Assembly: GCF_002104515.1 (NCBI RefSeq)
Contig: NZ_NBOE01000003.1
Span: 1 to 64,000 of the forward strand
Direction of reading: 5' to 3'
From: Colwellia polaris
GTDB lineage: Bacteria > Pseudomonadota > Gammaproteobacteria > Enterobacterales > Alteromonadaceae
Length of the DNA: 64,000 nt
The position numbers and the translations under genes were made by a program. A model generated the notes under the pieces. It saw only the letters and a program-made list of their open reading frames with translations. It had not been told where the DNA came from and ran no database searches. Numbering within the stretch: the stretch's first letter is position 1; each line of letters begins with the position of its first letter. Positions 22,915 to 54,209 of the stretch are shown in pieces.

Positions 22915-23505
22915 ATGTCTGAATCTCAATGCGCATCATGCAATCATATTGTTAAAGCAAAAGTGCTTCATTGCCCTATGTGTAATGGTGGTATGAAAGT
23001 ATTAGAGGAAACGAAACAAAAGTCGTGTCCTAGATGCTCCATAGCTTTACAAATAAGACATTACAGAAATTATGAATTAGATAAATGTAATCAATGTGAA
23101 GGCTTATGGTTACAACCAGATGAATTTTCAGTTTTAACATCCGAATTTGACGTTTACCGCGATGCTGAAAGTAATCCACAATATTTACGTACGGGGCTAC
23201 CTCAAGCTGAAAACTACTTACCCTGTGCAAATTGCAATAAGGTTATGTCAAGGCGTAACTTTAAGTCGATTTCTGGCGTATTAATTGATGCCTGCATACA
23301 TTGCGGCGTTTGGTTAGACAAAGGCGAGTTACAAAGTATTCGAAACTTTATCGCCAGCGGTGGTTTAGATAAGGCTCAAGATAATAAGCTGGTAAAACAA
23401 GAGCTAAAAATAGATGCCTTGAATGATCGTGTTTCGGACCTTGAATTGATGGAAAAAATGCTGAATAAATATAATATGAAAAGAATATTATTCAGAGGAT
23501 TTTAA
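22915..23505 (+). CDS. Protein with TFIIB-type zinc ribbons
   Basis: A 196-residue cytoplasmic protein. An initial CxxC pair set (CASC, CPMC) is followed by two zf-TFIIB motifs: CPRC...CNQCEGLWLQPDEF at about 38-71 and CANC...CIHCGVWLDKGEL at about 103-139. The CxGxWLxxxEL pattern is characteristic of this uncharacterised bacterial zinc-finger family. A helical tail, probably coiled coil, ends the chain. Function unknown. Confidence 0.8.
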   Translation: MSESQCASCNHIVKAKVLHCPMCNGGMKVLEETKQKSCPRCSIALQIRHYRNYELDKCNQCEGLWLQPDEFSVLTSEFDVYRDAESNPQYLRTGLPQAENYLPCANCNKVMSRRNFKSISGVLIDACIHCGVWLDKGELQSIRNFIASGGLDKAQDNKLVKQELKIDALNDRVSDLELMEKMLNKYNMKRILFRGF

Positions 23506-23620
23506 TCTTTTTGTAAGCTAAAAATAAGTAAAATATAGAGCGGCTAAACTGAGCCCATAAGTTCAATTATGTAATTAGCTAGAAAGTTTTTAAAATTTTA
23601 AAAGTAAACTCCACAGTCGA

Positions 23621-23832
23621 ACCAATCGCCAAGCACGCCACATTAAACGCACGAACGTAATATTTAGCATCATGGAGGGAATACGTTTAATGCAGTCGCG
23701 CCAACAAACTCCAGAGCTAAGAAAGTATGAATGCTGCTAACCTCCCTTCTCCTTTTTGGATTTAGTCGGCCCCAATGCCATACTAATAAACAAGTTCCAG
23801 TCCGATAAATTTACAGGGGCTCGGTGAAAGAG
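23621..23832 (+). repeat. Structured repeat, copy A (lacks the double-hairpin domain)
   Basis: It shares CATTAAACGC, the segment GCATCATGGAGGGAATACG (23667-23685), TAGTCGGC and AATAAACAAG with copies B and D, in the same order. The stretch holding the two hairpins in B and D is missing, as if deleted between the arms of the outer stem. The 3' end runs into the GTGTATCTGACCCTAC tandem repeat. Confidence 0.6.
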
Positions 23833-23880
23833 TAATGTGTATCTGACCCTACTTACTAATGTGTATCTGACCCTACTTAC
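23833..23880 (+). repeat. Two tandem 24-bp direct repeats of the GTGTATCTGACCCTAC family
   Basis: Identical 24-bp units at 23833-23856 and 23857-23880, each containing GTGTATCTGACCCTAC. The unit matches the terminal inverted repeat of the element at 7770-7916. The tandem arrangement suggests element ends joined head to tail or repeated insertion at the same site. Confidence 0.8.
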
Positions 23881-23952
23881 TACTATCGTTTGACTATCTA
23901 AAACATTAATTTCTTGAAACATTAAAATATAAACTCAAGAATCGAATCAAAC

Positions 23953-24198
23953 ACCAAGTCTGCTTCATTAAACGCCGGAATGATGATCAATATTCACGTA
24001 TCACTGGCAAGGATGCCAGTGAAAGCGCTGTTGGCACACGGACGTGCCATCAGCGCTGGTACGTCGAGAATATTGGGCATCATGGAGGGAATACGTTTAC
24101 GGCGTTTAACCCTCTTTGGGTGTAGTCGGCACCCCGACGCCAAACCAATAAACAAGCTCCAAGCCGATCAATTCGCAGTGAGTGAGTATCTGTCTAAT
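23953..24198 (+). repeat. Structured repeat, copy B, with three-way junction
   Basis: A 246-bp copy from ACCAAGTCTGC to GTATCTGTCTAAT. An outer stem (23988-24000 with 24060-24075, one three-base bulge) encloses hairpin 1 at 24001-24022 (9-bp stem, loop AGGA) and hairpin 2 at 24024-24057 (7-bp and 5-bp stems around an internal loop). Both hairpin tips read CANGGANG (CAAGGATG, CACGGACG). A 3' domain holds GTCGG-CACC-CCGAC. It is less AT-rich than the surrounding DNA. No long open frame is conserved with the other copies. Confidence 0.72.
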
Positions 24199-24242
24199 AT
24201 TAATATGATTTTAATATTTTTTTTTGAAACTTAACTGCTTTG

Positions 24243-24480
24243 AGTTTTAATCTCTGCTTGGCGTCGCGGTGGCGACAACACCCAGAGGGACGTTGCACGC
24301 CAAACGCCCCTCTGGACTCCCCATGGCGCCCAACACAGCAAAACACTCCAACAGAATTTAGGCACGAAGTTTATACCTGCCGAAAATCGTCCCTTCACGC
24401 GGCAGTCTACGCCATCCATGGCTCCGATAAACATCGCACTTTTCTAAATTCAGTTTCCGTTGCTGTGATGGGATCTAGTG
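24243..24480 (-). repeat. Structured repeat, copy C, inverted and divergent
   Basis: Read on the minus strand this copy ends in CCCTCTGGGTGTTGTCGCC and CGCGACGCCAAGCAG, matching the 3' domain of copies B and D (TGGGTGCAGTCGGCACC, GACGCCAAAC). It also holds a hairpin tipped CATGGATG (24411-24422) and a second stem CTGCCG/CGGCAG at 24377-24405 with GAAGGGACG inside. The 5' flanks of the stem (GAATTTAG with CTAAATTC) replace the outer stem of B and D. So the architecture is kept while the sequence differs. Confidence 0.58.
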
Positions 24481-24539
24481 ATCGTTGAAATTTCATTTTC
24501 TAAATTAACGAATTGAGAGCTATGAAAGATGAAACAACC

Positions 24540-24813
24540 ACCAAGTCTGCTTCATTAAACGCCGGAATGGTGACCAATATTCACGTATCACTGGCATGGA
24601 TGCCAGTGAAAGCGCTGTAGTACATGGATGTACGTTCAGCGCTGGTACGTCGAAAAATATTGAACAGCGTGAAGGAAACACGTTTAATGTAGCAGCGCCG
24701 AGGGAGTCCAGAGCGAGGTCGGCGTCAGCCTCCCTTTGGGTGCAGTCGGCACCCCGACGCCAAACAGGTAAACAAGCTCCAAGTCGTTAAATTAGAGTGA
24801 GTGTCCGTCTAAT
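24540..24813 (+). repeat. Structured repeat, copy D, with three-way junction
   Basis: A 274-bp copy from ACCAAGTCTGC to GTGTCCGTCTAAT, the fullest form. The outer stem is 24575-24587 with 24646-24662. Hairpin 1 is at 24588-24609 (loop TGGA). Hairpin 2 is at 24611-24643, with upper stem GTACA/TGTAC where copy B has GGCAC/GTGCC: compensatory change in both arms. Both tips read CATGGATG. The 3' part adds GGGAGTCCAGAG and the GTCGG-CACC-CCGAC hairpin. Confidence 0.73.
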
Positions 24814-24901
24814 TAGTCTTTTTTGTCATACACGGATGAATTTTCAAACGCTATTATCTCAAAGTAATATTTATAATAAAGATAACTATTAATAAGCAAT
24901 A

Positions 24902-24938
24902 AAAAACCCGCATTCTCTTATAGAGAGTGCGGGTTTTT
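24902..24938. terminator. Bidirectional terminator after the suc operon
   Basis: AAAAACCCGCATTCTCT pairs with AGAGAGTGCGGGTTTTT (one G-U) around a three-base loop, with A and T runs on both flanks. It lies 33 bp past the sucD stop on the minus strand and would also stop rightward reads from the repeat array. Confidence 0.92.
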
Positions 24939-24970
24939 ATTAAGAAAAACAGTTTGCAATCAAAAGCTGA

Positions 24971-25843
24971 TTACCAACCCGTTTTCTCTTTAAGTGCTAC
25001 ACCGATATCCGCTAAAGAACGAACTGTTTTAACACCAGCCGCTTCTAATGCTGCGAATTTCTCATCAGCTGTACCTTTACCACCAGCGATAATTGCGCCA
25101 GCGTGACCCATACGCTTACCTTCTGGCGCAGTAACACCAGCAATGTAAGATACAACAGGTTTAGTAACGTTTGCTTTGATGTATTCTGCAGCTTCTTCTT
25201 CAGCTGTACCACCAATTTCACCAATCATTACGATTGCTTCAGTTTGTGGATCGTTTTGGAACATTTCCAATACGTCGATGAAGTTAGTACCAGGGATAGG
25301 GTCACCACCAATACCTACACAAGTAGATTGGCCAAAACCAGCATCTGTAGTTTGTTTAACGGCTTCGTACGTAAGTGTACCAGAACGTGAAACAATACCT
25401 ACTTTACCAGGCTTGTGAATGTGACCAGGCATGATACCAATCTTAGTTTCGCCAGGAGTAATAACACCTGGGCAGTTAGGACCGATCATACGAACGCCAG
25501 ATTGATCAAGCTTAGCTTTAACGTCAACCATATCTAAAGTTGGGATACCTTCAGTGATAGTAACGATAAGCTCGATGCCTGCATCAATAGCTTCTAAAAT
25601 TGCATCTTTACAGAAAGGAGCAGGAACATAGATAACTGTAGCTGTTGCGCCAGTTGCTTCTACTGCATCACGTACTGTGTTGAATACTGGAAGGCCTAAG
25701 TGCGTTTGACCGCCTTTACCTGGGCTTACGCCACCTACCATTTGTGTACCATACTCAAGTGCTTGCTCTGAGTGGAATGTACCTTGACCACCAGTGAAAC
25801 CTTGACAGATTACTTTAGTATCTTTGTTAATTAAGACAGACAT
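24971..25843 (-). CDS. sucD: Succinyl-CoA synthetase alpha subunit
   Basis: A 290-residue ADP/GDP-forming subunit that binds CoA and carries the phosphorylated histidine. The N-terminal Rossmann motif [10 protein letters not shown] is at about residues 16-25, and the phospho-His lies in [12 protein letters not shown] near residue 246. Full length compared with E. coli (289). The start overlaps the sucC stop by one base, so the subunits are translationally coupled. It is the last gene of the operon. Confidence 0.97.
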
Positions 25844-47377: not shown

Positions 47378-47647
47378 TTAACGACGTAGACCTAATTTAC
47401 CGATTAAAGCAGTGTAACGTTCAACGTTTTTGCCTTTTAAGTAATCAAGTAATTTACGACGTTGGCTTACCATACGTAATAGACCACGACGTGAGTGATG
47501 ATCATGGATGTGCTGTTTAAAGTGACCTTGTAAGTGGTTGATTTGTGTAGTTAACAAAGCAACTTGAACTTCTGGAGAACCAGTGTCACCTTCAGCTTGT
47601 GCGTATTCTGCAACGATAGCAGCTTTTTCAGCAGCATTTAAAGACAT
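47378..47647 (-). CDS. rpsO: 30S ribosomal protein S15
   Basis: An 89-residue small-subunit protein binding 16S rRNA. It matches the usual length and carries [37 protein letters not shown] and the GLRR end. Position between truB and pnp is conserved with E. coli. Confidence 0.98.
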
Positions 47648-47779
47648 AATATTTACCTTAATTTTAGTGTTTTAAAAATCGCGTCGAGCCGAACACTAAA
47701 TCAGCAAGACGTTCTAAGAGCGCGTATTCTATCAGCAATAACCCGAAATGCAACTTTTACTGATATTACAAGTATTTCT

Positions 47780-53999: not shown

Positions 54000-54020
54000 A
54001 AAAAAAGGGCATAAAGCCCA
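54000..54020 (-). terminator. Second, weaker leader terminator before rimP
   Basis: On the minus strand GGGC-TTTAT-GCCC followed by a seven-T run. The stem is only 4 bp, so it may act as a NusA-sensitive pause or attenuator close to rimP. Confidence 0.5.
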
Positions 54021-54065
54021 GCGATACACCTTGCTGCTATTGCACCTTTTACAAAGTTAAGATAC

Positions 54066-54090
54066 AAAAAAGCCCCAATACGCGGGGCTT
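54066..54090 (-). terminator. Intrinsic terminator ending the rimP leader RNA
   Basis: On the minus strand AAGCCCC-GCGTATT-GGGGCTT with a six-T run. It lies 100 bp ahead of rimP and about 125 bases after the -10 box at 54216, so a short RNA is made unless transcription reads through. Confidence 0.88.
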
Positions 54091-54209
54091 ATTCACTGAA
54101 CCCACGATGTAAACCAAGTAATAACGTTCTTGGTTCTGTATAACAATATCTTAGATGTATATCTACCTTCGATAAAATCTATTCAGTGAAATATTGCTAC
54201 ATTCAAGCT
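54066..54209 (-). ncRNA. Structured leader RNA of the rimP-nusA-infB operon (rimP-leader-like)
   Basis: About 144 bases from a predicted start at 54209. TATTTCACTGAA near the 5' end pairs with TTCAGTGAATA just before the terminator, closing a domain that contains hairpins TAGAT-ATAC-ATCTA and AACCAAG-N10-CTTGGTT. In E. coli a tRNA gene (metY) and terminators occupy the matching place. Here no tRNA fold is found. A rimP leader family exists in Rfam from attenuator screens, and this may belong to it; that was not tested. Confidence 0.6.

Follow-up and report, generated by a model that had tools for sequence, protein, structure and literature searches.

On balance, we favor the view that a cluster of repeats in a 64,000-nucleotide stretch of Colwellia polaris DNA (the window) consists of the arms of a dispersed, noncoding inverted-repeat element of Gammaproteobacteria and that an arm, once transcribed, would serve as a platform for a CsrA dimer. 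Four repeat copies, A to D, lie between an open reading frame (ORF) on the plus strand (22915 to 23505), which carries a Zn_ribbon_TFIIB domain in Pfam, and an ORF on the minus strand (24971 to 25843), which is sucD-like by its sequence and by its place beside a sucC-like ORF; both gene names, sucD and sucC, are ones that we presume. The repeats extend past both limits of the interval, 23953 to 24813, in which a sequence-only reading had noticed them.

Copies B (23940 to 24190) and D (24527 to 24810), both on the plus strand and delimited by repeats, folding, and Rfam matches, are D-type arms, in which a junction is followed by a 3′ domain. As the sequence-only reading described, each folds into a three-way junction of two hairpins and an enclosing stem (z scores of −5.0 for B and −3.8 for D), and 0 of 200 shuffles was as stable in either case. 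In B, the fold and the alignment called A1 below pair the 5′ side of the outer stem (23982 to 24001; A1 columns 2 to 21) with its 3′ side (24059 to 24081). Within this stem stand hairpin 1 (24001 to 24022, loop CAAGGATG), whose outermost pair, depending on the fold, is also the last pair of the outer stem, and hairpin 2 (24024 to 24057, loop CACGGACG), which is placed by fold, alignment, and covariation. Fold and alignment place the corresponding hairpins of D at 24588 to 24609 and 24611 to 24643, both with the loop CATGGATG; the 3′ domain of D, defined by folding, is a longer hairpin plus a GTCGGCACCCCGAC hairpin (24695 to 24770). The upper stem of hairpin 2 reads GGCAC/GTGCC in B and GTACA/TGTAC in D, exactly as first reported, and two of the upper pairs are unformed in D (A1 columns 52/69 and 53/68).

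Copy C (24228 to 24500, minus strand), recognized from repeats, folding, and relatives, represents a second arm type. Its minus-strand fold has an outer stem of its own, GAATTTAG/CTAAATTC, around two inner hairpins (z score of −3.8; 0 of 100 shuffles as stable), which bears out the earlier claim of a different outer stem with the same inner arrangement. Hairpin 2 (CTGCCGCGTGAAGGGACGATTTTCGGCAG; 24377 to 24405, minus strand) and hairpin 1 (GCCATGGATGGC; 24411 to 24422, minus strand) were placed by sequence, fold, and alignment. The 3′ domain is common to C and D, and C and relatives have, past the junction, a plan similar to that of D.

Copy A (23589 to 23830, plus strand), identified from repeat families and alignment with B, is a D-type arm without the three-way junction. 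Its fold is no better than that of shuffles (z score of +1.1; 172 of 200 as stable), because the junction is missing between two copies of AATATT: in A, AATATT is followed directly by right-arm sequence, and 23659 to 23689 match positions 130 to 160 of the B query. Thus, A has lost the hairpin domain precisely, as had been noted, between two AATATT stem arms. AATATT is self-complementary, so the arms of the stem also hold a direct repeat, and the domain that A lacks is exactly what slippage across the hairpin would remove. Between A and B, a repeat search found a 24-bp tandem, TAATGTGTATCTGACCCTACTTAC twice (23833 to 23880, plus strand), perhaps an end or an insertion mark; similar units adjoin arms in loci L036, L041, L042, and L050 of our collection. 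ORFs of 84 and 82 amino acids run over B and C; a protein-coding reading was rejected, because indels of one base separate the arms at A1 columns 51 and 87.

Copy B belongs to a known family, Rfam RF01731 (TwoAYGGAY), which it matches at 23973 to 24090 with 58.3 bits against a cutoff of 43 (E value of 4.7e-7 in a search of the whole window). D, at 24539 to 24703, scored 42.6 bits, 0.4 below the cutoff, and C gave no RF01731 match even at an E value of 5. The sequence-only reading, which did not recognize the family, had suggested a comparison with Rfam; that comparison names it, and the RF01731 matches rule out an unknown family. B and D both have two adjacent hairpins with AYGGAY-like loops in an outer stem; loop 1 of B is AAGGAT, and the other three loops conform. 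Rfam types RF01731 as “Cis-reg” and groups it with CsrB (RF00018; Escherichia coli CsrB was scanned as a yardstick) in clan CL00106. The table of Weinberg 2010 lists TwoAYGGAY as a probable RNA that is probably neither cis-regulatory nor a riboswitch and gives human gut, Gammaproteobacteria, and Clostridiales as its sources (PMC2864571). A passage of the 2014 RMfam paper predicts CsrA binding from the TwoAYGGAY loops and calls the function of the family unknown (PMC4333381), and the Rfam 15 report records two additional covarying pairs for RF01731 in its R-scape revision (PMC11701678). Two known RNA leaders also lie on the minus strand of the window, a ribosomal S15 leader (47591 to 47712; 75.8 bits) and a rimP leader (54000 to 54122; 50.2 bits).

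The stems of the copies in the genus covary, in keeping with the paired changes first seen between B and D. Alignment A1 holds 23 copies from 14 genomes, picked by sequence similarity alone from the window and from regions of 15 further congeneric genomes, each with coverage of the junction query of 85% or more; D-type copies below 85%, including the loop-insertion arms of L036 and L046, were left out. Among its 920 cells, 95.1% are paired. Changes on both sides affect 7 of the 40 pairs, compared with an average of 3.8 in shuffles (3 of the 500 reached at least 7), and 27 cells, compared with an average of 8.6 (none of the 500 reached 27); these cells are not independent events because the copies are related. 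Slid controls gave 0 to 3 pairs and 0 to 4 cells. These changes sit in hairpin 2 and in the outermost stem. No pair changed on both sides in hairpin 1 or in the inner part of the outer stem of A1, and a count of further pair types in A1 gave no signal (331 of 500 shuffles as high). The proposal of selection on folded RNA or single-stranded DNA fits the covariation, the conserved GGA loops, and the G.T excess described below; part of the long perfect pairing could be due to palindrome dynamics, since the copies look like head-to-head inverted-repeat arms.

CsrA (RsmA) binds hairpin loops of the consensus CA(N)GGANG, one per face of the dimer. The loops of B and D present GGA in this context, and the second loop of C is less canonical; in A1, every row has GGA in loop 2, and 22 of the 23 also have it in loop 1. 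Scanning 59 loci with no requirement set on the flanking C, A, and G, we found 98 two-hairpin junctions, with both loops fitting the consensus in 81, a count that is partly circular, as the loci had been fetched mainly via RF01731 or similarity to the window. Three triplet-shuffles yielded 13, 9, and 20 junctions, none with the consensus in both loops; the 17 real junctions in which at least one loop lacks the motif may thus be chance. Both 4-nucleotide (AGGA) and 5-nucleotide (ANGGA) cores are present among the junctions, and the outer stems range from 7 to 26 bp; the 81 have 60 distinct 5′ arms between them. Junctions sharing the same triplet numbered 98 for GGA, against 100 for ATT, 99 for TTT, 96 for TCC, 90 for CTG, and 89 for TGG (median of the 64 triplets, 38), and adjacent hairpin pairs in the genus set shared TAA (16) more often than GGA (9). 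With other triplets about as frequent as GGA, the CA..G context therefore carries more of the signal than the triplet itself does.

The genome of the window (G000) contains csrA (91.4 bits); the CsrA family had no match in a control genome, Bacteroides ihuae. A CsrB candidate (G000:C28:75802-76129) scored 36.2 bits, below the cutoff of 71, in a search that also gave matches in 8 of 14 controls at an E value of ≤10. Four promoter-like matches fall in the array, no excess over shuffles (mean, 3.5).

The outer parts of C and D form an imperfect 68-nucleotide inverted repeat (24228 to 24295 and 24726 to 24793; 74% complementary), the exact ends of which are not fixed. In arrays of the genus, the two arm types alternate, the D type on one strand and the C type on the other, with their 5′ ends facing. 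Because of this alternation and the shared 3′ domain present as an inverted repeat, we read about 24190 to 24820, on both strands, as one complete element; C on the minus strand and D on the plus strand look like its two head-to-head arms, and A and B are read as single arms. An arm with its junction measures about 230 to 280 bp.

Other gammaproteobacterial families also have divergent junction pairs (L103, L109, L119, L132, and L136), with no visible sequence similarity between families in the outer stems. The pair in L103 stands between rplT-like and pheS-like genes, as we take these neighbors to be, and L106 has two junctions in tandem. Across the 59 scanned loci, neighboring junctions lay <900 bp apart in 36 cases, oriented −− in 19, ++ in 8, −+ in 8, and +− in 1; the 8-to-1 ratio is biased upward, as several loci were chosen for divergent hits, and most C-type arms escape the scan. 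In some arms, the loop of a GGA hairpin holds a further cluster of hairpins, whose loops again are GGA or TCC (L042:7503-7679, L036:7140-7421, L046:6431-6780, and L046:7114-7463), which is nested growth at the loop. At L086:3836-6106 (genome G082), arms recur in tandem about every 600 bp, with another palindromic repeat, CCCGGATATCGCTGCGCGATTCCGGG, interspersed among them.

RF01731 matches two places in the genome of the window, both at this locus. In the family, 56 of 147 genomes have matches at an E value of ≤0.01, 36 of them above the cutoff, and none of 14 control genomes does. In the phylum, where strict filters left few candidates to be scored per genome, matches at an E value of ≤0.001 occur in 35 of 398 genomes, 34 from the same class and 1, weak, from elsewhere. 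DNA of the window element is found in 16 of 17 genomes of the genus, its own included, and some of these relatives have up to three loci. sucD stands beside the main array, its 3′ end facing it, in 13 of the 14 fetched, the exception being G001; the sucD locus of G010 gave no DNA match to the window element, and, as degenerate pieces are visible there by eye, it was not counted as empty. The spot beside sucD is variable: genes for a CAP12/Pycsar-type TIR protein, a LysR protein, and a DUF2971 protein lie in or next to the arrays of different species (L036:5545-6408, L041:8476-9399, and L053:7567-8526).

Outside the genus, we scored the orientation of the gaps that hold elements, with ORFs of at least 150 amino acids standing in for genes. 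Thirty-six of 40 fetched loci entered the count; we set aside 8 in which an open frame covers the element and 1 that lacks a right neighbor, which left 27, several of them sharing a genome. Ten of these 27 gaps are convergent, 17 are co-directional, and none is divergent, against 22 divergent and 19 convergent gaps among 92 background gaps at the same loci (P of about 6e-4 on the assumption of independent loci, which does not hold fully). With divergent gaps absent, each counted copy therefore lies downstream of at least one gene.

The window element had no match on plasmids, so it is not a known plasmid passenger. The Pseudomonas-type element had no phage match, which rejects a known phage passenger for that element, and only small pieces of it (8 to 10% of the query) occur in 18 plasmids. 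Seventeen plasmids of the Bacteroides group (H1 to H17) carry a hairpin that shares about 80% identity with a portion of the Pseudomonas-type 3′ domain. On two of them, Bacteroides conjugative plasmids (L206:2501-2571 and L205:73-143), the hairpin lies just 3′ of an ArdC-like gene; no GGA junction was seen in the one of these two that was inspected for it.

The element is probably mobile. In genome G516, a second copy matches query positions 1556 to 2251, and two pieces (1556 to 1851 and 1974 to 2250) keep one such end each. No target duplication was recognized by eye at the ends of seven copies. Nor was a transposase tied to the element among 20 ORFs scanned, 18 of them near arrays of relatives; the set includes the neighbor in the window and one ORF from a region that shares just a chance match of 16 bases. 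Thirteen of these ORFs had Pfam matches and 7 had none; the matches were to LysR, CAP12-type TIR, DUF2971, RraB, KAP NTPase, and others, and two were of the IS110 type. Both IS110-type genes come from G014, where the stretches that hold them share 99.7% identity; they look like separate insertions. On the basis of these 20 ORFs, we disfavor an autonomous element with its own transposase, the only transposase-type genes recognized being the two of IS110 type, which showed no link to the element. A comparison of the L132 flanks with 79 genomes and then with the 29 loci returned gave no exact empty site; matching flanks lie about 150 to 260 bp apart in L169, L165, and L172, too diverged for an exact junction. 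As there is no exact empty-site junction, mobility is therefore something that we infer. To a known transposon end, the alternative raised by the sequence-only reading, the architecture bears a resemblance, but neither a transposase nor a target duplication was recognized.

The main rival explanation takes folded DNA as the relevant form. The arms would then be the ends of a nonautonomous mobile element whose hairpins, single-stranded or extruded as cruciforms, are recognized by a putative transposase or recombinase, with the GGA loops as part of the site. Head-to-head arms with inverted 3′ domains, copies with common ends in G516, and the deletion in A at AATATT repeats, which hairpin slippage predicts, all agree with this explanation. 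We nevertheless rate it as possible but rather unlikely: transposase ends do not usually have outer stems that vary freely in sequence, the letters that are conserved belong to the site of an RNA-binding protein, and no linked transposase emerged from the 20 ORFs scanned (7 of which have no Pfam match), the IS110-type genes looking separate. The mismatches inside stems also bear on the question. Read on the GGA strand, they comprise 17 G.T and 5 A.C (P of 0.017 pooled, with copies that are not independent; P of 0.11 for hairpins and 0.15 for outer stems taken apart), the other 50 of the 72 counted being neither. This one-strand bias in the larger set leans weakly toward RNA as the folded form; A1 alone has no clear bias and thus accords with folded DNA, its G.T and A.C pair types being nearly even at 11 versus 9 (43 versus 10 cells).

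Improbable in our judgment is a selfish palindromic repeat in which template switching corrects quasi-palindromes and copies survive only where they are harmless. It would account for long, perfect outer stems of unrelated sequence, and the absence of divergent gaps fits selection against promoter damage, as argued in part of a study of other Pseudomonas repeats (PMC2718517). Template switching, however, keeps no loop letters, yet GGA stays while the stems turn over, and the two-hairpin arrangement is kept across families. That the array is a bidirectional transcription terminator or insulator between convergent genes is very hard to credit: it does lie between two ORF 3′ ends, and 10 of 27 element gaps are convergent compared with 19 of 92 in the background, but 17 of the 27 are co-directional, no terminator-like site occurs in 23500 to 24970, and the conserved GGA loops are left unexplained.

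We return to an inverted-repeat element whose transcribed arms would bind CsrA. Several of the results above count against it: promoter-like matches without an excess and no terminator-like site, a C arm that RF01731 does not match, other triplets about as frequent as GGA, a separate CsrB candidate below the cutoff, nearly even pair types in A1, no recognized target duplication or linked transposase, and a related hairpin on Bacteroides-group plasmids that occurs without a GGA junction, while the CsrA family had no match in B. ihuae. As we read it, a complete element consists of two arms placed head to head. Going outward, each arm starts with a three-way junction, the two hairpins of which usually have CA(N)GGANG loops, and continues with a 3′ domain made of another two hairpins; these 3′ domains are the outer inverted repeats. 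Since the arms point outward, either direction of transcription would give one platform: read-through from a neighboring gene on either side would yield one arm with the GGA loops in the sense strand. The junction would hold two loops side by side, suited to the docking of one CsrA (RsmA) dimer, and the RNA may act as a decoy or titrator of CsrA or as a stabilizer of 3′ ends rather than as a riboswitch.

As a tentative extension, which we regard as more doubtful than the platform itself, the element may be a mobile, symmetric CsrA decoy that can insert in either orientation and, by read-through from either neighbor, supply one sense platform at the 3′ side of a transcript. If so, each new copy would add CsrA-titrating RNA or tag a host mRNA for CsrA, and arrays that grow and shrink at one locus, such as that beside sucD in this genus, would tune Csr regulation. 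Viewing TwoAYGGAY as one arm of a paired element with CsrA-consensus loops also poses a testable question, namely, whether these repeats load the gammaproteobacterial transcriptome with CsrA sites, and would call for reannotation of the intergenic repeats and of the spurious open frames over them.

Several known systems invite comparison. CsrB/RsmB and the Rsm-type small RNAs (RF00018) share with these repeats the clan CL00106 and GGA in hairpin loops. CsrB collects many GGA sites in one small RNA gene, whereas here each arm has two, in repeats without a recognized terminator or an excess of promoter-like sites. The alternating orientation within arrays is that of REPs in BIMEs. REPs, however, are palindromes described as 20 to 40 bp long (PMC3733652), in contrast to arms of about 230 to 280 bp with a three-way junction. 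Terminal inverted repeats, a trait of MITEs, are present as the imperfect 68-nucleotide repeat. With MITEs and the R-family repeats of Pseudomonas fluorescens, which an account of those repeats gives as 50 to 352 bp long, with five families made of a stem and a variable core, the element has in common that it is intergenic, multicopy, and gene-free, with inverted repeats in some and a bias to gaps between gene 3′ ends (PMC2718517). The conserved multihairpin fold of each arm sets it apart from the R families, R26, R178, and R200 being compared here by description only (PMC2718517). Our literature searches, made among open-license papers, found none describing the head-to-head element, and older Pseudomonas repeat lists may hold it under an R-number. 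RF01731 itself shares with B and D the two GGA-loop hairpins enclosed by a stem. Its model spans the junction of one arm only and leaves the C type unmatched, and the 3′ domain, the head-to-head pairing, and the inverted-repeat element are absent from the passages cited here of its published descriptions (PMC2864571, PMC11701678, and PMC4333381). Thus, the RNA motif and the CsrA idea are already in print, and the paired, head-to-head inverted-repeat anatomy is the part that appears to be new.
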